16,885 nt of DNA from contig SCRI01000016.1 of NCBI GenBank assembly GCA_004298675.1, positions 1 to 16,885 on the forward strand. The letters run 5' to 3'. The DNA is from a bacterium. GTDB taxonomy: Bacteria; Vulcanimicrobiota; Vulcanimicrobiia; Vulcanimicrobiales; SCRA01. Below the pieces are notes generated by a model. The model saw only the letters and a list, made by a program, of their open reading frames with translations. It searched no databases and was not told the DNA's origin. Shown one piece after another: positions 1 to 16,203 of the stretch; positions within the stretch are counted from its first letter, which is position 1; each line of letters starts with the position of its first letter. Position numbers and translations under genes: made by a program.

Positions 1-134
1 AGCACTACTACAAGCGCGTACCGCCGGGAACGGCGCCGCTGGCGGCGATGCATTTGGAAGGCCAGACCGATCCCGCTGTGGTTCAGACGCTCGCGGAGTG
101 GCTCTCCGCCACGCTTCCCGTCGCTGCGCGCTGA
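1..134 (+). CDS. C-terminal end of an unidentified protein (partial)
   Basis: An open frame (codons in phase with position 3) runs in from the left edge and ends at TGA 132-134. It gives about 43 residues ending in TLPVAAR, with a plausible terminal amphipathic helix (DPAVVQTLAEWLSATL). Codon third positions are mostly G/C, as in the neighbouring genes. I do not recognise the family. It converges on the permease gene and their 3' ends overlap by 52 nt, which is long for a convergent overlap, so either this reading or the permease C-terminus may be partly spurious. Confidence 0.4.
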   Translation, partial: HYYKRVPPGTAPLAAMHLEGQTDPAVVQTLAEWLSATLPVAAR

Positions 135-1363
135 CGGCGCCGCGCAGTCAGCCACGCCGGGATCGCAACGACGAGCGGATAGAGCGCGCCCCATCCCAAG
201 AACGGATAGACGAGGGCGCTCGTGGCGAACGCGAACCACGCCATGCCCGCCTCACCGCGCGACGGCGCCAGCTTCACACCCGCTGCCGTCCCCAGCAGAT
301 AGACGGCGATGAAGCTTGCCGACGGCAGCAGGATCAGCGTCTGCAGCGAGCTGGCGTTGGAGACCAGTGCCACCAAAACTCCGCCGCCGAGTACGCCGAT
401 CGCCAACAGCCCACCCGCGGGCGCGCCGACGGCATTGGCGGCGCCCAGAAACGCAGGCGCCAGGCCGCGCTGCGCGAGCGAGCGTGCTAACGAGGCCGCG
501 CCACCGAGATAGGTGACCAGCATGGCGCTGACGCAGGCGAGCGCGAGAATCCCCGTAGCCCAGCCCGCCGCCGGCCCGAGCGCAGCGCGCATCACCAGCA
601 CGAGCGAGGCAGCACTGCGTCCGCCGCCGTAACTGCCGGTGCCGACGGTAACAACGGCAGTGCCGACGTAGAGCACCGTGATGATCGCGGCGGCGATACT
701 GACGGCGGGAACGAGATCGCGACGCGGATCGCGAAACTCGCCGGAGAGGTGCGTCACGGCCTCCCAACCGATAAACGACCAGAAGAGAATTGCGGCGGCA
801 CGGCCGACGCCCACGATCCCATGGGGTGCGAAGGGCGTGAAGTGCTCGACGCGCACGTGCCAGGCTCCGCCTGCGACGGCCACCGCCAGCAGTGCGGCGA
901 CGGCGCCTACTACGCCCACTTGCAGCCACGCTGCCGCGCGCATGCCGCGATAGTTCACGGCGAGCACGCCCGCCAACAGCGCCGCCGCCAGCGGCCCAAC
1001 GGCCCGCGCCGGCAATCCGAACGCGGAGACGGCGTACGCCGCTGCGACGAACGTGGAGATCGGGGCGCCAAATGGGATCGCCAAGAGAAAGAGCCAGCCC
1101 ACGAAGGCGCCCGCGCCCGAGCCGAAGGCCTGTTCGACGAACGTCGAGACGCCTCCACCGCCCGGAAAGCGAGCGGCCAGCGTCGACATCGTCAGTGCCA
1201 TCGGCAGCGCGGCGATCGCCATTGCGATCCATGCCATGATCGAAGCGGGACCGGCGAGATCCGCCGCCAATGCGGGCACGATGAGCACGCCGGAGCCGAG
1301 CACGGCTCCGACGTAGAGCACGACGGCGTGGAGACGGCCGAGCGCAGGGTGCGGTGACGACAC
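83..1363 (-). CDS. APC-family amino-acid permease
   Basis: Predicted 426-residue polytopic inner-membrane transporter of the amino acid-polyamine-organocation superfamily, near the family's usual length. TM1 carries the family glycine-rich segment (GAVLGSGVLIVPAL, about residues 19-32), where the substrate amino group and carboxylate bind in this fold. A second family signature, FIGWEAVTHLSGEFRDPRRD, lies at about residues 195-215 (TM6 and the following loop). About 12 hydrophobic segments can be read. The closest type seems to be the small YjeH-like exporters/permeases, but substrate and direction cannot be read from sequence. Two GTG codons are adjacent at the 5' end. I choose the second (1361-1363) because a TACCAT box ends exactly 6 nt before it, with no Shine-Dalgarno, implying a leaderless message. 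The gene lies 83 nt downstream of the quinone oxidoreductase on the same strand. Confidence 0.88.
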   Translation of the reverse strand: MSSPHPALGRLHAVVLYVGAVLGSGVLIVPALAADLAGPASIMAWIAMAIAALPMALTMSTLAARFPGGGGVSTFVEQAFGSGAGAFVGWLFLLAIPFGAPISTFVAAAYAVSAFGLPARAVGPLAAALLAGVLAVNYRGMRAAAWLQVGVVGAVAALLAVAVAGGAWHVRVEHFTPFAPHGIVGVGRAAAILFWSFIGWEAVTHLSGEFRDPRRDLVPAVSIAAAIITVLYVGTAVVTVGTGSYGGGRSAASLVLVMRAALGPAAGWATGILALACVSAMLVTYLGGAASLARSLAQRGLAPAFLGAANAVGAPAGGLLAIGVLGGGVLVALVSNASSLQTLILLPSASFIAVYLLGTAAGVKLAPSRGEAGMAWFAFATSALVYPFLGWGALYPLVVAIPAWLTARRRQRAATGSVAESHSASV

Positions 1364-1380
1364 CACACGATGGTAGCACC
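1364..1380 (-). promoter_or_regulatory. Leaderless extended -10 promoter of the permease gene
   Basis: On the minus strand a TACCAT hexamer (1370-1375) is preceded by TGC, giving an extended -10 (TGnTANNNT). It is followed by 6 nt and then GTG at 1363. Transcription starting 6-7 nt after the box would begin at the start codon itself. No convincing -35 is visible, as is common for extended -10 promoters. Confidence 0.5.
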
Positions 1381-1446
1381 GTTCGCGCGCTGCCGCGTGC
1401 GATTGTTTCGATACACGCCATCGTCCACGTCGATGGCGCGCGGCCG

Positions 1447-2466
1447 CTACGGCGTTACGATGATCTTGCCAACGTTCTGCGCTGTTTCCATGCGCCGGTA
1501 GCCTTCGGCTGCGCGCTCGAGCGGGAGCACCACGTCGATCACCGGGACGATCTTGCCTTCGTTGTAGAGCACGATCAGCGCCGCCATCTCCTGCTCCAGC
1601 AGATCGGCTTGCCCCCAGAGGTGGCCGACGTTCACGCCGATCACGCCGCGGTTCGCGGCCATGAGCGCAAGCGGGCTGAAGCGCGGAATCGCCAGGCCTT
1701 GGCGCAGTACATGAACGAGGCTGCGACGCTCGCCGCGCTGGATGTTGGCGAAACCGTAGACGACGATGCGCCCGCCGGGCCGCAGCAGCTTATAGCCCTT
1801 CACCGTGTCGCGGCCGCCAAGCGGGTCGAGCACGATGTCGACACCCCGCCCGTCGCTGAGGCGGCGCACTTCCTGCGCGTAGTCGACGGCGTGGTAGTCG
1901 ATGGGATACGTACAGCCGTTGGCGCGCAACGCTCCGTGCTTGCGCGACGAGGCCGTACCGAACGTGGTGACGCGCTCCACCGTGCGGCAGAGCTGCAGCA
2001 CCGCCGTTCCCACGCCGCCCGCGGCCATATGCACCAGCACCGACTCGCCCGGCCGCAGGCAGGCGGCGCGGAAGAGCATGTGGTAGGCGGTAAGGTAGGT
2101 GAGCGGGAGCGCGGCGGCCGCTTCGAACGGCATCTGTTCCGGGATCGGTAGCGCCTGGCCGGCTTGCACGCAGAGCAGCTCCGCGTGCGCGCCGAACTTC
2201 GCCAACGCAACCACGCGCTGGCCCACGCGCGCGGCATCGACGCCCTCGCCCACGGCGTCGATCACGCCGGAGGCCTCGTAGCCAAGGACGGCTGGCGGCT
2301 TGGGGGCGTCGGGATAGAGCCCTTGGCGCGCCATCAGCTCTGAGAAGTTGAGGCCGGAAGCATGCACGCGAATGCGTACCTCCCCGGCTTGAGGCACGGG
2401 ATCGGGCGTCTCGCGCACGGCCCAGGCATCGCCGCCGCCGTGCCTGACCAACCACAGTGCGCGCAT
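1447..2466 (-). CDS. Zinc-independent NAD(P)H:quinone oxidoreductase-like MDR protein
   Basis: A 339-residue medium-chain dehydrogenase/reductase of the quinone oxidoreductase / VAT-1-like branch, predicted cytosolic. The N-terminal GroES-like half contains GLNFSELMARQGLYPDAP and VLGYEASGVIDAVGEGV. The Rossmann half has the nucleotide-binding AxxGxxG motif in VLVHMAAGGVGTAVLQL and a later GRGVDIVLDPLGG. The structural and catalytic zinc ligands of the alcohol dehydrogenases are absent, as expected for this branch. The start is ATG 2466, preceded by AAGGAG at 8-9 nt; an open frame continues upstream but only inside the GT9 gene. It lies 23 nt after the GT9 stop, so the two are probably co-transcribed. 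The true substrate is unknown; these enzymes reduce quinones, enones or other activated alkenes. Confidence 0.88.
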   Translation of the reverse strand: MRALWLVRHGGGDAWAVRETPDPVPQAGEVRIRVHASGLNFSELMARQGLYPDAPKPPAVLGYEASGVIDAVGEGVDAARVGQRVVALAKFGAHAELLCVQAGQALPIPEQMPFEAAAALPLTYLTAYHMLFRAACLRPGESVLVHMAAGGVGTAVLQLCRTVERVTTFGTASSRKHGALRANGCTYPIDYHAVDYAQEVRRLSDGRGVDIVLDPLGGRDTVKGYKLLRPGGRIVVYGFANIQRGERRSLVHVLRQGLAIPRFSPLALMAANRGVIGVNVGHLWGQADLLEQEMAALIVLYNEGKIVPVIDVVLPLERAAEGYRRMETAQNVGKIIVTP

Positions 2467-2489
2467 GAGGGAGGCTCCTTTCGTGCGCT

Positions 2490-3503
2490 CTAGACGCGGG
2501 TGAGCAGCGCCTCGCAGACTGCGACGACGCGCTCGGGATCGAGCTCGCGCAGGCAGGCGAAGTCCGGGCAATTCTCCTTGCGGTGCCACGCCGGACACGG
2601 ATAGACCGGCTCCACCACCGCCGTGCGCGGCCCTAGCGGCGCCCAACGCTTGGGCTCGTCGGTTTGCAGCGCGAAAATACCGACGGTGGGCGTGCCAAGG
2701 CATGCTGCGAGATGCATCGGCCCCGAATCAACGGCTACGCACAGACGCGCGCCTTCCAGCAGTGCCGCCAACTCACCGAAGGTCGTCTCGCCGGCGAGGC
2801 AGCGCGCACCCGCGCCGCTTGCCACCGCCTCCGCCAGCGCACGATCGCTCTGCGTCCCGCTCACCAGCACGGGTAACGAGAAGCGCTCGCGCAGGCGCAA
2901 CGCCACCGCGGCCAGCGTCTGCACGGGCCATGGGCGCCCGTTCAAGTCGAGCCCGCGCGTAGGATGGAGGACGACGTAGCCGCCATCTCCGATCCCCAGC
3001 TCCAGCACGCGGGCACGCATCGCCGCGCGCGTCTCGCGATCGACGCGGAAGCTCGGCGTGGGATCAACCTCCGGGCAACCCGCCGCACGCGCGTAATCCA
3101 GTAAGATCTGCGTCCAGTGTGTTTGGCGATCGCCCAACTCGCTGCGCACGGTCACGCGGCGGTTGAAGAGCAGCGAGTACGGCCGGCGCGCCTGCCCCAC
3201 GCGCAGTGGAACGCCGGCGAGAAACGGCAGCAGCGCCGAGCGCTGCGTGGCCCACGTCACGACGGCAACGTCGAAGCGGGCGCCGCGCAGGCGCCGCGCC
3301 ACGGCGAGCAAACCGGCATCGTCCAGCCAGACGCCGTGCAGATCGGGATTACCTTTCAAGACCTCACGGTGACGCGGCGCCGTCAGCGCGACAACTTCTC
3401 GCGCCCCCGCCGCCCGCAAGGCGCGCGCGACGGGCGTGGCCAGCAGGACGTCGCCGGCACCGCCGCCCGCGCAGATCACGAGCGCCCGTTCGAGCTTTCG
3501 CAT
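2490..3503 (-). CDS. GT9 (heptosyltransferase-family) glycosyltransferase
   Basis: A 337-residue protein of glycosyltransferase family 9, the ADP-heptose:LPS heptosyltransferase family, acting on the cytosolic face of the inner membrane. Visible are the N-terminal acceptor-domain motif CAGGGAGDVLLATPVARAL (about residues 11-29), a central VLHPTRG strand, and the donor-site signature AVDSGPMHLAACLGTPTVGIF near residue 260. The C-terminus has the cysteine-bearing segment with CPAWHRKENCPDFACLREL seen in RfaF/RfaQ-like members. The ATG at 3503 is the only in-frame ATG/GTG after an upstream TAG. No Shine-Dalgarno is visible. Its role in extending a heptose-containing core fits the heptose operon at 10106-15333. 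Donor and acceptor specificity cannot be read. Confidence 0.87.
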   Translation of the reverse strand: MRKLERALVICAGGGAGDVLLATPVARALRAAGAREVVALTAPRHREVLKGNPDLHGVWLDDAGLLAVARRLRGARFDVAVVTWATQRSALLPFLAGVPLRVGQARRPYSLLFNRRVTVRSELGDRQTHWTQILLDYARAAGCPEVDPTPSFRVDRETRAAMRARVLELGIGDGGYVVLHPTRGLDLNGRPWPVQTLAAVALRLRERFSLPVLVSGTQSDRALAEAVASGAGARCLAGETTFGELAALLEGARLCVAVDSGPMHLAACLGTPTVGIFALQTDEPKRWAPLGPRTAVVEPVYPCPAWHRKENCPDFACLRELDPERVVAVCEALLTRV

Positions 3504-3517
3504 GCCGGAGCCGCTGT

Positions 3518-3553
3518 TTGCCGTCCACGCCCCGATGCCTCTATACTATGGGC
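3518..3553 (+). promoter_or_regulatory. Promoter of the YcsI-like gene, -10 shared with the divergent GT9 gene
   Basis: TTGCCG (3518-3523), an 18-nt spacer and TATACT (3542-3547) form a sigma-70-type promoter. Exactly 6 nt separate the -10 from ATG 3554, so the transcript would be leaderless. On the minus strand the same bases give TATAGA (3540-3545), a -10 for the divergent GT9 gene with an untranslated leader of roughly 30 nt. The two -10 boxes overlap, as in a bidirectional promoter. Confidence 0.5.
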
Positions 3554-4330
3554 ATGACGCGAGACGAGATCATCCAACAGATCCGCGCCGGCAAGATGAC
3601 GGGTACGACCAGCGGCCTCGCGCCCGAGTACGTGCAAGCCAATCTCGTCGTGGTGCCCGCCGCCTACGCGGCCGATGTGCGCGGGCTCTGTCAGCGCAAT
3701 CCCGTGCCCTGTCCGCTCGTCGAAGAGCTGCCCACTGGCGCGGTCGAGCCGCGCTGCGCGCCGGGGAGCGATCTGCGCACCGATCTGCCCGCGTATCGGC
3801 TCTGGATCGACGGCACGTTGTCTGAACGCCGCCACGATGTGCGCGCACTCTGGCGCGACGATCTCGTGGCATTCCTGATCGGCTGCTCGTTCACGTTCGA
3901 GCACGCGCTGGTGGATGCGGGCTATCGTCTGCGCCACCAAGAGTTGGGCCGCACGGTGCCGATGTTCCGCACCAACGTGCCGCTGGCGCCCTCGGGGCGC
4001 TTGCACGGGCGCATGGTGGTCAGTATGCGCTCGTTTCCCGCTGCCGACGTCGAGGGCGTGCGCACGGTGACGCGCGCTTACGCGGAGGGCCACGGCGAGC
4101 CGGTGCATTGGGGCGATCCCGCCCAGCTCGGCATCGCCGACATCAACCACCCGGATGAGGGGGACCCCATCCCGCTGGAGGCGGGCGAGGTCCCGGTCTT
4201 CTGGGGCTGCGGTGTGACGCCTCAGCTCGTGACCATCGAGAGCAAGCTACCCTTCGTGATCACCCATGAGCCAGGCTCGATGTTCATCACGGCCTTGCGC
4301 CATGAGGCGCTCGCTACGACGGGTAGTTGA
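3554..4330 (+). CDS. YcsI/DUF1445 family protein (putative hydro-lyase, D-glutamate cyclase-like)
   Basis: A 258-residue cytosolic protein of the UPF0317/YcsI family (DUF1445), whose vertebrate relative includes the D-glutamate cyclase that forms 5-oxo-D-proline. Recognisable family segments are TSGLAPEYVQANLVVVP near the N-terminus, the central FLIGCSFTFEHAL and RTNVPLAPSGRLHGRMVVSMR, and near the C-terminus PVFWGCGVTPQLV with FVITHEPGSMFIT. The length matches the family (about 260). ATG 3554 is chosen over ATG 3548, two codons upstream, because the TATACT -10 box lies 6 nt before it. It has its own promoter and converges on the substrate-binding protein gene with a 17-nt overlap of 3' ends. 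The biochemical reaction in bacteria is not established. Confidence 0.85.
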   Translation: MTRDEIIQQIRAGKMTGTTSGLAPEYVQANLVVVPAAYAADVRGLCQRNPVPCPLVEELPTGAVEPRCAPGSDLRTDLPAYRLWIDGTLSERRHDVRALWRDDLVAFLIGCSFTFEHALVDAGYRLRHQELGRTVPMFRTNVPLAPSGRLHGRMVVSMRSFPAADVEGVRTVTRAYAEGHGEPVHWGDPAQLGIADINHPDEGDPIPLEAGEVPVFWGCGVTPQLVTIESKLPFVITHEPGSMFITALRHEALATTGS

Positions 4331-5585
4331 GCTTGCAGATCGTTGACTGCACCGCTGCCGACTGCGCGATTTTCTCCGGCGGCTGACGATCGACGATCTC
4401 GAGGAGATCGTGCGCGTCGCCGCCGGGCCCCGTCTTACGCAGCTCGCCGAACCACATCGGCCACATGAGCTGATGATCGACGGCACGGTACTCCGAAGTA
4501 CCGTCCCAGAGCCCGCTGAATTTCGCACCCGACAACGTCTTGGAGACCTTGACGGCGTCGGTCGTCTTGGCCTCGTTGATCGCCCACAGCAGACGGTCGA
4601 CGGCCACGTGCGCAAACGCGGAGTGCGCGGTCGGCGGTTCCTGATGCGCCTTCATGTAGGCTGAGACGAAGCCGGCGCCCAACTTGTTGCCCTTGCCGAA
4701 CACCAAGTCGCCGCGGTAGTACCACTCCACGCCCCAAAAGCCCACGCGCGCCTCCTCGGGGAGCGCCCACGCCGTCTCGAGATCGATCTGCGGACCGGCC
4801 ACTGGAAACTTCTTGAGCAAGCCGAAGCTGCTGGCTTGCTTGAGGAAGTTCACCAGATCGTTTCCGTTGACGATCGCGATGATGCAGTCCGGCTTGGCGC
4901 CTTCGATCTTCGTGAGGTAGGTGCTGAAGTCGCTCGTGCCCAGCGGCGTGAGGTCGTAACCGACGACCTCACCGCCGACTGTTTTGAGGACGTCTTGGTA
5001 TCCGGCGGCGATAGCATGGCCGAACGCGTAATCGGGCGCGATCAGATACCACTTCTTGCCGAATTTCTTGGCAATCGAGTACCCGGTGGCATGCGTCTGC
5101 ATCCAGGTGGCGTGACAGGTCTGGAACGTATTCCAGTGACACTGAGCCCCCGAGATCTGATCGGCGTGGCTGCCGGAATCGATGAACGGCACGTTCATCG
5201 TCGCCGCGGCTCCGCTGACTGCGAGCGCGGCGGACGAGTTGATGGTCCCCGCCAACGCGACGGCCTTGTCCTGATTGACCAGCTTGCGCGCCTTCTCCAC
5301 GGCGACGCCGGGGTTGTTTTGATTGTCCTCGATCAGCAACTGCACGGGGCGCCCCATCACGCCGCCGCGTTTATTCCACGCATCGACGGCCATCGTGGCG
5401 CCGCGGATCTCGCTGCGCGCAAAGGCCGCGTACGTTCCCGTGATCTCCTCCACGAGGCCGATCTTGAGCGCCTCCGCCGCCTCGCCCCGGCGAGGCACGA
5501 TGGCCGGAAAGCCGGCCGCGAGCACCGCAGCGCCGGCGCCCGCACGCTTCAGGAACGATTCTCTACTGAGTGCACGATCTGTCAT
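4314..5585 (-). CDS. Branched-chain amino-acid-type ABC transporter substrate-binding protein
   Basis: A 423-residue exported solute-binding protein of the type-1 periplasmic-binding fold (Leu/Ile/Val-BP, Peripla_BP_6). After the signal region it reads EALKIGLVEEITGTYAAFARSEIRGATMAVDAWNKRGG, the usual first beta strand and helix, and later LLIEDNQNNPGVAVEKARKLVNQDKAVALAG, the standard signature. ATG 5585 is preceded by GGAGG at 11 nt. An earlier in-frame ATG at 5630 would add a non-homologous stretch. The leader SRESFLKRAGAGAAVLAAG resembles a Tat signal, but the second Arg is Glu, so Sec export is as likely. No permease or ATPase genes lie in the window, so this is an orphan component here. 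The ligand is unknown; relatives bind amino acids, amides, urea or aromatic acids. Confidence 0.88.
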   Translation of the reverse strand: MTDRALSRESFLKRAGAGAAVLAAGFPAIVPRRGEAAEALKIGLVEEITGTYAAFARSEIRGATMAVDAWNKRGGVMGRPVQLLIEDNQNNPGVAVEKARKLVNQDKAVALAGTINSSAALAVSGAAATMNVPFIDSGSHADQISGAQCHWNTFQTCHATWMQTHATGYSIAKKFGKKWYLIAPDYAFGHAIAAGYQDVLKTVGGEVVGYDLTPLGTSDFSTYLTKIEGAKPDCIIAIVNGNDLVNFLKQASSFGLLKKFPVAGPQIDLETAWALPEEARVGFWGVEWYYRGDLVFGKGNKLGAGFVSAYMKAHQEPPTAHSAFAHVAVDRLLWAINEAKTTDAVKVSKTLSGAKFSGLWDGTSEYRAVDHQLMWPMWFGELRKTGPGGDAHDLLEIVDRQPPEKIAQSAAVQSTICKLNYPS

Positions 5586-5754
5586 GAACAACAAAGCCTC
5601 CGTAAGAAAAACGGCTACCCGGTTCCGCATTGGATTCGCTTAGGGTGCGAAGCGCTCTTTCTCGCATCATGCGCAAGCTGGGCAGGAGAGCTTCGGGCCA
5701 AGCAGGAGAATATGATGCGCGCGCATTCCAGGTGCGTCCGTCACAGGAGGAAGC
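5586..5754. promoter_or_regulatory. Divergent intergenic region: substrate-binding protein / RraA-amidase pair
   Basis: A 169-nt region between two divergent genes with no coding signal. On the plus strand TATGAT (5711-5716) is a good -10 candidate about 38 nt upstream of the RraA-like start; its -35 is weak. AGGAGG at 5745-5750 is the ribosome binding site for ATG 5755. On the minus strand GGAGG for the binding-protein gene is clear, but I could not fix a -10 with confidence. The shared region makes co-regulation of uptake and catabolic genes plausible. Confidence 0.35.
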
Positions 5755-6420
5755 ATGTTCGTCGAAGGGGCGCGAGGTCCCGAGCCCGATCCGGCGCTCA
5801 TCCGTATGCTGAACGGATTGAGCCCCTCCACGCTCGGCCATCTGACCGACTTCGGTTTTCCGCGTGGGCTGCGTCCGCTCTTTACTCCGATCTCCTTTGC
5901 CGGTCCGGCCGTCACCGTACGCATTCCTCACATGGACTCGGCGGCCGTGCACGCGGTGATGGACGTCGTGAAGCCGGGCGACGTCGTCGTCGTCGACCAA
6001 TCGGGCGATGAGGATCGCGCTCCCTGGGGAAGTCTCGTCACCACCGCCGCTATGGCCAAGAAGATCGCCGGCGCCGTCGTCCAAGGCGGCGTCACCGATG
6101 TGCGCCAGCTCATAGAGTGGCGCTTCCCCATTTTTTCGCGGACCATCTCCGCGCTCACCACACGCATCCTCGGCACCGAAGGAGCCATCAATGTCCCCGT
6201 GGTCATCGGCGGCGCGCTCGTGCGCCCGGGCGACATCGTCTGGGCCGACGACAACGGTATCGCGATCCTAGATCCCGCCGACGCCGAACGCTGGGCGCGC
6301 ACGGTCGCGGAGAAAGAGTCGGCGGAGCCCGAGCTGTTGGAGCGTATTCGCGCCGGCGAGTCGCTGGCGGCGCTCAGCGGCGCACGCGAGTTGCTGCGGC
6401 GCAACGCCGCGAAAGTGTAA
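5755..6420 (+). CDS. RraA / HMG-aldolase-like protein lacking the signature arginine
   Basis: A 221-residue member of the RraA-like family (4-hydroxy-4-methyl-2-oxoglutarate aldolases, oxaloacetate decarboxylases and the RNase E inhibitor RraA). Family landmarks are LSPSTLGHLTDFG (22-34), the helix-start loop WGSLVTTAAMAKKIAGAVVQGG (91-112), INVPVVIGGALVRPGDIVWADDNGIAIL (145-172) and a helical C-terminal arm. The catalytic loop is normally G-x-x-R-D, where the Arg binds the pyruvyl group and the Asp supports the divalent metal. Here it reads GVTDV: Thr114 (codon ACC, 6094-6096) replaces Arg, while Asp115 is kept. The start is ATG 5755 with AGGAGG 4 nt upstream. The amidase gene follows 8 nt after the stop, so the pair is almost certainly co-translated. 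Aldolase or decarboxylase activity should not be assumed. Confidence 0.83.
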   Translation: MFVEGARGPEPDPALIRMLNGLSPSTLGHLTDFGFPRGLRPLFTPISFAGPAVTVRIPHMDSAAVHAVMDVVKPGDVVVVDQSGDEDRAPWGSLVTTAAMAKKIAGAVVQGGVTDVRQLIEWRFPIFSRTISALTTRILGTEGAINVPVVIGGALVRPGDIVWADDNGIAILDPADAERWARTVAEKESAEPELLERIRAGESLAALSGARELLRRNAAKV

Positions 6421-6428
6421 GTAGGCGA

Positions 6429-7607
6429 ATGACTGCTGCGGAGGCGCGTGCGCGCGCGAAGGCGCATCCCGACTGGAACATCTTCATCTCGTATACGGAC
6501 GAGGAGGGCGATGGCCCCGCGGTGGCCGTCAAGGATCTCGTGCACGTCAAGGGCACCGTGACCACCGGCGGCGGCAAGGTGTTTCCCGCCACCGTCGACG
6601 CACAGGACGATCCCGTGATCGCGCGGCTACGCAAGCACGGTTGCGTGATGATCGGCAAGCTCAACATGCACGAGTTCGCCTACGGCCTCACGAGTATCAA
6701 CCCGCACTACGGTACCGTCCACAATCCAAAGGCACCGGGGCGCGTGGCCGGAGGCTCCTCGGGCGGCTCCGCCGCCGCAGTGGCGGCCGATATGTGTGAC
6801 TGGGCCATCGGTACCGACACCGGCGGCTCCATTCGCAATCCTGCGGCTATGTGCGGCGTGACCGGCTTCAAGCCCACCGTGGGCACCGTCGATACCGCAG
6901 GCGTGATTCCGCTCAGCAAGACGCTCGATACGCTCGGCCCGCTCGCGCACGACGTGATCCAGGCCGCGGGAGCCCTGGCAATGATGTGCGACGTGCCGGG
7001 GCTGGTACCGGCGGCGCCGCGTCCGCTCTCCGCGTTCCGCCTCGCCGTTCCCGCACCCGGCTGGGTGGGCGAGCTCGATTCCGACGTCAGCACGGTCTGG
7101 CAACGCGTCAGCGCCGGCCTTCCGGTGATCGACCTGCCCGAACGCTTGCGCATGGCCAACGTCTCGCTCACGATCATGTATCGCGAGGCCTACGACTACC
7201 ACCGGCCCTGGATCGAGAGCGACTCCTCACGCTACGGCGCCGACGTGCTCGCCACGCTCATGCGCGGCAAAGACGTGACGCAGAGCGACTACGAGCGCGC
7301 GCAGGCGGAACTACTCGCCGTGCGCCGCGAGACCGAAGCAGCCATGGCGGACTACGACGCCATGCTCGTACCCGCGACGGCAATCGCGCCGCCGCTGGTG
7401 ACGGCGAGCAGTCTCGAGATGCGCGAACCGCTCTCGCGCTTCACGCGCCCGTTCAACGTTACCGGCCAGCCGGTCTATGCGCTACCCTATCCCACGACGG
7501 GGCTCCCGGTAGGCATACAGGTGGTGGGGCACTTCGGACGCGACGCCGCTCTCGTACCGGTGGCCTGGGCGCTCGAACGCGCCTGGACCGGCAAGACGCA
7601 GCCGTAG
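6429..7607 (+). CDS. Amidase-signature family hydrolase
   Basis: A 392-residue amidase-signature enzyme, slightly shorter than typical members (about 450-500). The Ser-cisSer-Lys triad can be read: Lys35 in VAVKDLV, cis-Ser110 in GGSSGGSAAAV, and nucleophile Ser134 in GTDTGGSIRNPA; the 24-residue spacing between the serines matches FAAH and GatA. The C-terminal part shows the usual FTRPFNVTGQPVYALPYP and GLPVGIQVVG segments. It should hydrolyse a carboxamide in the cytosol; substrate unknown. ATG 6429 is the first start in homologous sequence, and the open frame upstream only overlaps the RraA-like gene out of frame. It is preceded by a weak GTAGG. No gatB or gatC lies nearby, so it is unlikely to be the tRNA amidotransferase subunit. 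It pairs with the RraA-like gene in a two-gene operon. Confidence 0.88.
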   Translation: MTAAEARARAKAHPDWNIFISYTDEEGDGPAVAVKDLVHVKGTVTTGGGKVFPATVDAQDDPVIARLRKHGCVMIGKLNMHEFAYGLTSINPHYGTVHNPKAPGRVAGGSSGGSAAAVAADMCDWAIGTDTGGSIRNPAAMCGVTGFKPTVGTVDTAGVIPLSKTLDTLGPLAHDVIQAAGALAMMCDVPGLVPAAPRPLSAFRLAVPAPGWVGELDSDVSTVWQRVSAGLPVIDLPERLRMANVSLTIMYREAYDYHRPWIESDSSRYGADVLATLMRGKDVTQSDYERAQAELLAVRRETEAAMADYDAMLVPATAIAPPLVTASSLEMREPLSRFTRPFNVTGQPVYALPYPTTGLPVGIQVVGHFGRDAALVPVAWALERAWTGKTQP

Positions 7608-7615
7608 GGGCGGCG

Positions 7616-7747
7616 CTAGAGCAAGCTCGCGATCACCGCGGCGATGATGCCGGCGATAGCTATTGCGAGGGCGGACTCGACGCTGTTGCCGCGCGTTGCG
7701 GCGATGGCGCGGGCCCGCGGGCCCTGCTGCCGTATCTGGTTTCTCAT
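7616..7747 (-). CDS. Small single-TM protein, 43 residues
   Basis: A short frame reading MRNQIRQQGPRARAIAATR, then a short linker, then a hydrophobic segment ALAIAIAGIIAAVIASLL that ends at the stop codon. The basic N-terminus and C-terminal hydrophobic helix suggest a single membrane anchor with the N-terminus in the cytosol. I do not recognise a family. Support for a real gene is the membrane-protein pattern, a TAGAGT -10 box ending exactly 6 nt before the ATG (7754-7759) without Shine-Dalgarno, and its position filling an otherwise empty gap, 8 nt from the convergent amidase stop. A perfect 14-bp palindrome, GGGCCCGCGGGCCC, lies in the codons for the GPRAR residues. Confidence 0.5.
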   Translation of the reverse strand: MRNQIRQQGPRARAIAATRGNSVESALAIAIAGIIAAVIASLL

Positions 7748-7760
7748 TGCGCTACTCTAA
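7748..7760 (-). promoter_or_regulatory. Leaderless -10 box of the 43-residue gene
   Basis: TAGAGT on the minus strand (7754-7759) sits 6 nt before ATG 7747. The -35 region is poor and no extended -10 TG is present. The call rests on the identical spacing in neighbouring genes. Confidence 0.35.
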
Positions 7761-7808
7761 ACCCGGAGAATGCCATCAGGGTGGCACTCACGCCGGGCTG
7801 CGCCGCCT

Positions 7809-7988
7809 TCAGTGGAAGAGCGACGCGATGAGGAACGTGACGATGAATCCAAGCATCACGAGGGCTACGACGAGCGTCACCAACGACTCGAACATCCCCG
7901 CGGGCCGGCGCCGGCCGCGCCGGCCCCGCAACGAGGTCATGAAGTAGGGGAAGTTGCGGCTGGAGGGATCGAAGGGCGGCTTACCCAT
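7809..7988 (-). CDS. Small single-TM protein with Arg-rich stretch, 59 residues
   Basis: A 59-residue frame: N-terminal MGKPPFDPSSRNFPYFMTSL, then RGRRGRRRPAG, then a hydrophobic segment ESLVTLVVALVMLGFIVTF (about residues 34-52) and a short tail ending LFH. The positive-inside rule puts the Arg-rich part in the cytosol. I do not recognise a family. The start is supported by an extended -10 (TGG then TATGCT at 7995-8000) ending 6 nt before ATG. GGAG is also present but only 2 nt from ATG, too close for a normal ribosome binding site. The architecture matches the 43-residue neighbour, 61 nt downstream. They may act in the envelope, but nothing shows how. Confidence 0.55.
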   Translation of the reverse strand: MGKPPFDPSSRNFPYFMTSLRGRRGRRRPAGMFESLVTLVVALVMLGFIVTFLIASLFH

Positions 7989-8003
7989 AGCTCCAGCATA
8001 CCA
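7989..8003 (-). promoter_or_regulatory. Leaderless extended -10 promoter of the 59-residue gene
   Basis: TGG followed by TATGCT (7995-8000, minus strand), then 6 nt, then ATG 7988. No clear -35. Confidence 0.4.
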
Positions 8004-8054
8004 GTCGTGCGTGCCAACGGCACGGCACGCGGGAACGACGCACGACCTATCAGC

Positions 8055-9044
8055 CTAGTGCGAGCCGAGGAGTCCAGCTGCCGCCTCCAGCAGCCGCGCG
8101 CCGTAAGCTGCGGCCGATTCGTCTTCCGAAGGCTCCAGTATCACACGGTAGGGCGAGTTCCACGGATACCACTGCGTGGCCAAGCGCTGGCCGTGCTCGC
8201 GCGGGAAGATATCGGCTACCGGCGTTCCCACCGCGCCCGCGACGTGCGCGGCACCTGAATCCGGGGTAATCAACACGCCCGCGGCGGCGACGGCGCGCAG
8301 CCACTGCCCCTTCGCTCCCAGCGGGTCGCAGGGATGGCCGCTGGCGGCGCTGAGCTGACGCCCGAGTCCCAATTCCGCCGTGTGTGCCAGCAGGCGCGCT
8401 TTGGGCACAGCGCGCAACGCCTCGCCCATCCACGCCGCATCGCGCCCCGGCGGAATCAACTTACGTGTGGCTTGTATCGCGATCACGTCCACGCGCGAGA
8501 CGTGATCCACGTTCAGTGCCTCGCGCGAAGCGGTTAGCGCGTGCGCCGGCTCTCCCCGCACCAGCCCCGCCTTCACGCCCAGCGCGAAGAGCTGGCGCAC
8601 TTCGTGCGGCTGCTCCACCCAGGCCGCGGGGCGATAGACCACGCGCGTGCAGCGCCAGCGCGTCCAGAGGGATTTGAACGGCTTCTCGAAAGCGTTCCAG
8701 AAGCCGACGCGCACGGGGGTTCCGGCCAGCGCAGGCAGCCGATAGGCGTCGGGCTCTTCGGAACAGATCAGCGCGACGTCGTAGTTACCGGAGATCTCGG
8801 CACGCGCGCGCTCGAACGATTCCTCGGTGGAGCCGTGCAGCCGCGTGCTATCGGGCACCAACACGTGCACGCGCGCGAACAGGTCGCGCGCGAAGAGATC
8901 TTGATTGCGCGGCGAGAGCACGGCACCCAGCGTGCAGCCGGTGTCTCGCAGCCCGAGCGCCAGCGGCAGCATGGCCAGAGCATCGCCGATGCCGTCCATG
9001 CGCACGAGGAGCACGCGCACCGCTGAAGACGTCCGGGTGGTCAC
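8055..9044 (-). CDS. GT9 (heptosyltransferase-family) glycosyltransferase
   Basis: A 329-residue GT9 enzyme. The N-terminus VRVLLVRMDGIGDALAMLPLALGL is the family's first strand and GxGD loop (about residues 9-32). The donor-site signature ITPDSGAAHVAGAVGTPVADIF lies near residues 260-281. The C-terminal cysteine segment of the other GT9 gene is absent, so the two are not close duplicates and probably transfer to different acceptors. I place the start at GTG 9044 rather than the GTG at 9059, because a strong promoter with -10 TAGGCT ends 5 nt before it and no Shine-Dalgarno is seen; the longer form would start inside the promoter. It follows the degenerate response regulator by 63 nt on the same strand. 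Likely cytosolic, acting on LPS core or related surface glycan. Confidence 0.83.
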   Translation of the reverse strand: MTTRTSSAVRVLLVRMDGIGDALAMLPLALGLRDTGCTLGAVLSPRNQDLFARDLFARVHVLVPDSTRLHGSTEESFERARAEISGNYDVALICSEEPDAYRLPALAGTPVRVGFWNAFEKPFKSLWTRWRCTRVVYRPAAWVEQPHEVRQLFALGVKAGLVRGEPAHALTASREALNVDHVSRVDVIAIQATRKLIPPGRDAAWMGEALRAVPKARLLAHTAELGLGRQLSAASGHPCDPLGAKGQWLRAVAAAGVLITPDSGAAHVAGAVGTPVADIFPREHGQRLATQWYPWNSPYRVILEPSEDESAAAYGARLLEAAAGLLGSH

Positions 9045-9079
9045 AGGCCAGCCTAGCACTGCGAGGATTGCAGCGTCAA
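9045..9079 (-). promoter_or_regulatory. Sigma-70-type leaderless promoter of the second GT9 gene
   Basis: On the minus strand TTGACG (9074-9079), an 18-nt spacer and TAGGCT (9050-9055) preceded by TGC form one of the two best promoters in the window, here with an extended -10. The GTG start at 9044 is 5 nt after the -10 box. Confidence 0.6.
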
Positions 9080-15472: not shown

Positions 15473-15736
15473 GTGGGAAAGATCGAAGCTGAAGCAACCG
15501 TGCGGCTGAAGAGCCAGATCACGCTCCCGGCCGAGATCGCGTCGCGACTGGGCGCCAAACAAGGAGATCACCTGCTGTTCTCGCTGCTAGAGGGCGACGC
15601 GCTACCGCGGGTGGAGATGCGCCTACTGCGTCGCAGCTACGCGGGAGTCGCGAAGGGGCTCTACGGCGAGAGCGACGAGGGCACGGATCGCTACCTGCGC
15701 GAGGAACGCGAGAGCTGGAAGAAAGAGCGCCCGTGA
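15473..15736 (+). CDS. AbrB-family (VapB-type) antitoxin
   Basis: An 87-residue antitoxin. Residues about 3-50 form a SpoVT/AbrB swapped-hairpin DNA-binding domain (ATVRLKSQITLPAEIASRLGAKQGDHLLF). Residues 55-87 (SYAGVAKGLYG, then the charged DRYLREERESWKKERP) are the expected toxin-binding tail. The start is GTG 15473, with GAGG about 8 nt upstream; ATG 15446 would fall inside the -10 box and is rejected. Its TGA overlaps the GTG of the PIN gene by 4 nt. It should neutralise the toxin and repress the operon. Confidence 0.85.
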   Translation: MGKIEAEATVRLKSQITLPAEIASRLGAKQGDHLLFSLLEGDALPRVEMRLLRRSYAGVAKGLYGESDEGTDRYLREERESWKKERP

Positions 15737-16203
15737 TTTCACGCGCGCTCGAGCGCGTTCTAAGCCCCGGGGTACCGCTGCTGCTCGACTCCTCGGTGTT
15801 GATCGCCCACGTACGCGGCGACGAGCACGTTTCGGAGCTGGCGACACAGGTCGTCGACGGGATGGTGCGCAGCGGTCGCAATCGCGCCATCGTCTGCGCC
15901 GTGAGCGTCATGGAGGTGTTGATCGAGCCGCGGCGCAAGGCACGAGCTGTCTATCGCGAGTTGCTCGACTTCTTCGAGCACTTCCCGAATCTGCGTGTCG
16001 AGCCGGTCGATCTCGAGATCGCAAGCAGAGCCGCCGAGTTACGCGCCGACCTCGGTTTCGCCGCGCCCGATGCGCTCATCATCGCCACAGGGCTGGTGCG
16101 CGAGGCCGGCTATATCGTCACGAACGACGGCGAATGGTCGCGCAAGCTCAAGTCGCTGAAACCGGCGATCTCCGTCTGCCGGCTCTCGTTACTCCTGGAG
16201 TAG
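15733..16203 (+). CDS. PIN-domain ribonuclease toxin (VapC-type)
   Basis: A 156-residue PIN-domain protein, the probable toxin of a type II pair; such enzymes cut RNA, often tRNA or rRNA, using Mg2+. The four acidic active-site residues can be read: Asp19 in LLLDSSVLIAH, Glu61 in SVMEVLIEP, Asp113 in AAPDALIIATG and Asp132 in IVTNDGEW, so it appears catalytically intact. The N-terminal 15 residues precede the first PIN strand and are slightly longer than usual. It starts at GTG 15733 in a GTGA overlap with the antitoxin stop, indicating translational coupling. Confidence 0.88.
   Translation: MISRALERVLSPGVPLLLDSSVLIAHVRGDEHVSELATQVVDGMVRSGRNRAIVCAVSVMEVLIEPRRKARAVYRELLDFFEHFPNLRVEPVDLEIASRAAELRADLGFAAPDALIIATGLVREAGYIVTNDGEWSRKLKSLKPAISVCRLSLLLE

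Follow-up and report, generated by a model that had tools for sequence, protein, structure and literature searches.

In this analysis, we focus on a promoter class recognised in a complete contig of 16,885 bp (SCRI01000016.1 of assembly GCA_004298675.1, hereafter the window; G+C content 67%), which belongs to a 3.03 Mb genome of the bacterial order Vulcanimicrobiales assembled in 87 contigs. Two small genes of the window, encoding proteins of 43 and 59 amino acids (aa), share an inverted repeat, RTGCC-N8-GGCA[C/T], which lies exactly 10 nucleotides (nt) upstream of their -10 box, and comparison of sequences shows that this arrangement, repeat-N10-TANNNT, forms a well-supported, order-wide class of promoters in front of repair genes. 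The promoter family probably belongs to DNA-damage switching, and it seemingly has not been described before; no earlier report of the motif was found in the open-access literature. By analogy with DriD and PafBC, we consider it fairly likely that a WYL activator of that kind drives a second DNA-damage regulon through these promoters, and that it would thereby induce the two small proteins, both predicted to have a single membrane helix, from leaderless mRNAs. The original prediction had singled out five TANNNT boxes shortly before start codons of the window, two of them at these genes; the palindrome-marked class in front of DNA-repair genes had escaped it. Upstream regions were aligned with those of relatives (L023, L024, L025 and L068-L070) for conservation, and the features of the two small genes are the following:

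7616..7747, minus strand: predicted leaderless open reading frame (ORF) of 43 aa with a single C-terminal hydrophobic helix, start ATG 7747
7754..7759, minus strand: -10 box TAGAGT of the 43-aa gene, 6 nt before the ATG; TATGAT in L024
7770..7787, minus strand: inverted repeat GTGCCA-N6-TGGCAT of the 43-aa gene, 10 nt upstream of the -10 box
7809..7988, minus strand: predicted leaderless ORF of 59 aa with a single C-terminal hydrophobic helix, start ATG 7988
7995..8000, minus strand: -10 box TATGCT (extended, TGG) of the 59-aa gene, N6 to the ATG; TACACT in L024, TACGCT in L023
8011..8028, minus strand: inverted repeat GTGCC-N8-GGCAC of the 59-aa gene, 10 nt upstream of the -10 box

Across the relatives, these two -10 boxes keep only their T, A and T, and the complete arrangement recurs well beyond the window. 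The pattern TGCC-N7-TGGCA-N11-TANNNT has 9 sites in this genome and, in the other three members of the genus, 7, 9 and 2, with 0 matches of the control in each; in the sister family of the order, it is found 0 to 10 times per genome over 37 genomes, against 0 to 2 for the control. When the gap between the repeat and TANNNT was left free between 4 and 16 nt, it was 10 nt in 77 of the 116 matches, and every other gap accounted for 10 matches at most. Moreover, a matrix trained on 62 sites of the sister family only recovers 11 sites of at least 21 bits in 1.04 Mb of this genome (part of which was chosen for its exact sites, so that this count is not a density), and it recovers none with the reversed control. 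The highest score is that of the 43-aa promoter (34.1 bits), and the 59-aa promoter reaches 25.6 bits. The arms of the repeat lie at -39..-35 and -28..-24 (the A of the ATG being +1) and so flank the -35 position, and no recognisable -35 hexamer is found in the repeat promoters. A sigma54 promoter (TGGCAC-N5-TTGC) was also considered and rejected, since TGGCAC resembles its -24 element but TANNNT stands at -12 where TTGC is expected.

The five boxes of the window might be nothing more than unlinked, ordinary leaderless sigma70 promoters, with the palindromes at the 43-aa and 59-aa genes there by coincidence. Leaderless TANNNT genes are indeed widespread in bacteria (PMC3160421, PMC12340547), and the other three promoters of the window fit this description. 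We nevertheless regard it as very improbable for the two small genes, because the control gave 0 matches to the palindrome pattern in the genus, and because the pattern persists in sister genomes and is seen again in front of repair genes.

The start codon follows TANNNT by exactly 6 nt at 31 of the 88 distinct sites, and by 7 nt at 7 more, so about 40% of the class would be leaderless; recA and ssb, when they lie behind the repeat, mostly have leaders of 35-60 nt. The targets among these 88 sites include recA (11 loci, that of this genome among them), SSB, UvrD-type helicases and an RNase_T exonuclease, as well as RecB-like targets, LAGLIDADG and HNH-like endonucleases and TnpB (HTH_OrfB_IS605), the recA and HNH-like targets having been named by eye. 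Judged by these predicted functions, the list is a DNA-damage gene set. At one site of this genome (L036:11475), no convincing ORF follows.

Several further genes were noticed behind the repeat. TnpB/OrfB-type and homing-endonuclease-like genes repeatedly stand directly behind it and are of the leaderless type (L197:5383 on the minus strand, L240, L241 and L124), and these mobile nucleases appear to have captured a damage-type promoter. A 749-aa ORF (L253:1498, plus strand) is of the Cas3-HD type by eye, without a Pfam match in its first 60 aa. In one sister genus, a conserved protein of 68-69 aa (MLETNDWSDPLVIAMRAFERVLLA...; L115, L117, L119 and L120) has the same leaderless repeat promoter.

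Both small ORFs of the window look real, as their start, frame and stop are conserved and their differences are biased to third positions. In the 43-aa ORF, conserved in these respects in L024, there are 11 differences at third positions and 6 at positions 1 and 2; the 59-aa protein has orthologues in L024 (80%) and L023 (48%), and its gene shows 20 differences from that of L024 at third positions and 10 at positions 1 and 2. Their maximum Kyte-Doolittle (KD) hydropathy over 19 residues is 2.56 for the 43-aa protein and 2.97 for the 59-aa protein. No Pfam or PHROGs family was matched by either of them, and the 59-aa protein has only weak matches outside the genus. That the two are paralogues was rejected, their similarity being only motif-like (BLAST E 1.0). 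Very small proteins with one membrane helix are familiar from damage responses: SidA, of 29 aa, is the SOS-induced counterpart of DidA. The latter, found in Caulobacter, is a single-helix protein of 71 aa that is induced by DriD and blocks division (PMC4211646). The proteins of 43 and 59 aa have the same features, together with a promoter class shared with recA, and division control is our leading guess for both after the DidA analogy; a membrane toxin or a role in envelope stress may be considered as well.

Since repair genes follow the repeat and the repeat lies near lexA, a LexA operator was favoured at first, and it was dropped on the finding of a separate GAAC-type box. lexA itself was found in all 41 genomes (40 above the family cut-off), and the lexA promoters that were read carry a box of the type CGAAC[AG]TATGTTTG, that is, of the classical GAAC-N4-GTTC type (CGAAC-N4-GTTTG), while the new repeat is absent from the lexA promoter of this genome. 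This separate box and the missing repeat make it unlikely that the repeat is the LexA operator; recA and lexA are involved with both elements, but the new repeat differs from the LexA/SOS box in sequence and geometry. In the lexA loci of many sister-family genomes (L159-L188), the repeat is present along with CGAAC-N4-GTTTG, and a divergent -10-like TAYAA often lies 10 nt off on the other strand.

A broader possibility is that the palindrome is the operator of some repressor, whether a LexA paralogue or another SOS-type protein, which would cover the -35 position until damage relieves the repression. A palindromic site over -35 and repair targets would suit it, and so would the many sister-family lexA promoters in which the repeat lies between the -10 box and the start, a more repressor-like position. 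We consider it quite unlikely, given the distinct box in the lexA promoters and the 9 of 11 recA sites that have no LexA-type box nearby. In addition, a near-invariant gap to the -10 box combined with the lack of a -35 hexamer is what one expects of an activator and not of a repressor.

Indeed, the fixed distance to the -10 box and the missing -35 point to an activator that replaces the -35 contacts, and two known systems that do so after DNA damage, both of them WYL proteins, offer a model. PafBC acts at a -26 motif, where it is placed between sigma domain 4 and the promoter (PMC11804915). DriD is a homodimer whose palindrome overlaps the -35 at a constant distance from the -10 box, the -35 being flanked by its DNA-binding domains (PMC12340889), and its regulon in Caulobacter crescentus includes didA, bapE, recJ and dnaG (PMC4211646, PMC12340889). 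The promoters described here likewise have a pseudo-palindrome over a poor or absent -35 at a fixed distance from the -10 box, their targets likewise include repair nucleases and small single-helix membrane proteins, and the candidate regulator has the same WYL and WCX domains. They differ from the DriD regulon in that recA and ssb are included, many targets appear to be leaderless and the regulator is only a candidate.

The mycobacterial recA promoter RecA-NDp has a consensus that we take to be TTGTCRGTG-N8-TANNNT, a spacing equal to TTGGCACNN-N8-TANNNT here. Its element is different and non-palindromic (PMC6789036), the one described here being palindromic. The PafBC regulon that it represents is, like the one proposed here, LexA-independent, responds to damage, includes recA and combines a -26 element and TANNNT with no -35 (PMC6789036, PMC11804915); it is served by a PafB/PafC heterodimer, whereas here a two-armed repeat is paired with a single-chain candidate.

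This candidate, WYL1, is one of two WYL proteins in the genome (G000:C74:72028-73014). It matches DriD (8tp8, E 4e-10) and PafC (1e-7), carries WYL and WCX domains and has a match in 40 of the 41 genomes, the exception (G014) being a genome with no site. In three members of the genus, a site whose repeat lies 10 nt from TACGCT/TACCTT overlaps the 3' end of the WYL1 gene, and the second WYL gene has the repeat directly upstream. Just upstream of this second gene stands a 182-aa protein with a leaderless repeat promoter (L195:6165-6750 of contig G000:C34), similar in G002 and G003; no Pfam family was found in the first 150 aa that were scanned.

Several observations weigh against assigning the regulon to WYL1. 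A DriD-type regulator has the layout wHTH-3HB-WYL-WCX, but Pfam detects no helix-turn-helix in WYL1, and the repeat was not found within about 1.5 kb in six WYL loci of the sister family. Three genomes (G006, G024 and G028) have WYL1 but no site of the exact pattern, and in one that does have sites (G025), WYL1 is matched only weakly. The repeat (TGCCA-N6-TGGCAC) is also unlike both the mycobacterial motifs and the DriD consensus, ATACGAC-N7-GTCGTAT (PMC12340889). The evidence that makes WYL1 a candidate binder of the repeat is circumstantial, consisting of context and analogy, and division inhibition likewise comes from the analogy with DidA and SidA alone; the repressor-like position of the repeat in sister-family lexA promoters counts on the same side. 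Thus, another activator family or a dedicated sigma factor might read repeat-N10-TANNNT, and both the circumstantial nature of the link and the genomes in which WYL1 and exact sites do not coincide would agree with this. We hold it to be unlikely, since repeats adjoin both WYL genes of the genus, the sole genome without a WYL protein match is also without sites and the geometry equals that described for DriD; a sigma factor, for its part, would need no symmetric site, and the -10 box is the usual TANNNT.

With WYL1 as the best candidate, the response could run as follows. Like DriD and PafBC, WYL1 would be activated by single-stranded DNA; it would bind the repeat, and the bound activator would let the housekeeping polymerase start at promoters without a -35. 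DNA damage would in this way lead to the 43-aa and 59-aa single-helix membrane proteins, made from leaderless mRNAs, which would act in the envelope, most likely by holding cell division like DidA. The fullest form of this proposal, an order-wide LexA-independent regulon that works through a new RTGCCA-N6-TGGCAC-N10-TANNNT operator, a homodimeric WYL activator, leaderless mRNAs and tiny division-checkpoint proteins, is one that we put forward tentatively.

The leaderless signal itself was profiled in the same genome, of which 993 kb were sampled, with 976 kb outside the window used for the TANNNT counts. Genes in the sampled stretches were predicted with a simple purpose-written gene finder, and TANNNT boxes ending d nt 5' of in-frame or out-of-frame ATG/GTG candidates were counted. 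The genes that come first in their unit (395 genes, with 770 in-frame and 577 out-of-frame candidates, the window left out) have one sharp peak only, at d=6, where 14 in-frame boxes were counted; the other offsets average 4.1 (Poisson P 9e-5), and d=7 has 9. Out of frame, the count at d=6 is 1 of 577 (Fisher P 0.003 against in-frame). The peak is absent from operon-internal genes in the 976 kb (3 in frame, 4 out). It is therefore real and matches what is predicted for leaderless transcripts, and the enrichment at this offset that had been put forward for the window is borne out, in frame only.

The excess corresponds to about 10-16 of the 395 genes, that is, 2-4% of unit-first genes, so the frequent leaderless transcription proposed originally does not hold for this genome, of which the window holds more leaderless-type starts than the average. 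The raw genome-wide count of TANNNT-N6-ATG, 227 against 200 for the reversed pattern, agrees with this low frequency, although it is too blunt a measure on its own. The counts also do not support mostly GGAGG-type sites in operon-internal genes, GGAGG/AGGAG/GAGGT having an in-frame excess of just about 0.19 for each internal gene, compared with 0.15 for each unit-first gene. The genes in question resemble the TA-led genes described elsewhere, which have TANNNT about 12 nt 5' of the start (Zheng 2011, PMC3160421; Deinococcus-Thermus, PMC12340547), in their -10 consensus, their offset, their lack of a Shine-Dalgarno sequence and their first position in the unit; all five boxes of the window stand at this place. 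Their share is far below the roughly 20% of genes reported in Actinobacteria and the 46% in D. radiodurans (Zheng 2011, PMC3160421), and here leaderless starts account for a large fraction of one class of repair-gene promoters.

The five boxes are all present at the offsets claimed, with the extended -10 TG seen at the permease, 59-aa and GT9 genes, and they would be sigma70-type -10 boxes whose transcripts begin at, or about 1 nt from, the start codon. The three genes that lack the repeat would be ordinary, sporadic leaderless genes, and their features are as follows:

83..1363, minus strand: amino acid permease (PF13520), probable start GTG 1363; the L023 orthologue starts at an aligned ATG
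1370..1375, minus strand: permease -10 box TACCAT (extended, TGC), N6 to GTG 1363; box conserved in L023
3542..3547, plus strand: -10 box TATACT of the YcsI-like gene, N6 to ATG 3554; identical in four genomes
3554..4330, plus strand: YcsI-like / D-glutamate cyclase gene (PF07286), start ATG 3554
8055..9044, minus strand: GT9 glycosyltransferase (PF01075), start GTG 9044
9050..9079, minus strand: GT9 promoter TTGACG-N18-TAGGCT (extended, TGC), with TAGGCT at 9055-9050, 5 nt before GTG 9044

For the YcsI-like gene, TATACT-N6-ATG is kept in four genomes, including the divergent L070, whose flank further upstream diverges, and the alternative ATG 3548 is missing in relatives. For GT9, both the -35 TTGACG and the -10 box are conserved in L023 and L024, and the alternative downstream GTG is GCG in L023, which excludes that start there. 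Box and start are thus conserved together, with diverged flanks, at the YcsI-like, GT9, 43-aa and 59-aa genes, for which leaderless initiation is the best reading. The permease is different: its -10 box (TGCTACCAT) is conserved, but L023 has 28 more nt and then an ATG preceded by an AGGAA leader, so that leaderlessness appears to be local and the same promoter would drive a leadered gene in L023. Initiation at this one promoter would have switched type between the window, where it is leaderless, and L023, where it is leadered (gene 18631-19902, in the other strand orientation). The original prediction is thereby confirmed in part as an observation, and supported in part as an interpretation. 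Elsewhere in the window (15473-16203), an AbrB-like small ORF is followed by a PIN-domain-like ORF, toxin-antitoxin-like by eye.

The start codons of several genes are fixed by these comparisons, and leaderless initiation is tied to a probable stress regulon. The operator and its fixed spacing provide a sequence handle on probable damage-induced genes in uncultured genomes, among them mobile nucleases and small ORFs that lack annotation. Damage responses that depend on an activator and not on SOS have been described in detail for PafBC in mycobacteria and for DriD in Caulobacter; if the reading proposed here is true, this order would add a further, order-wide example, and the adaptation of promoters to WYL-type activators would be more general.

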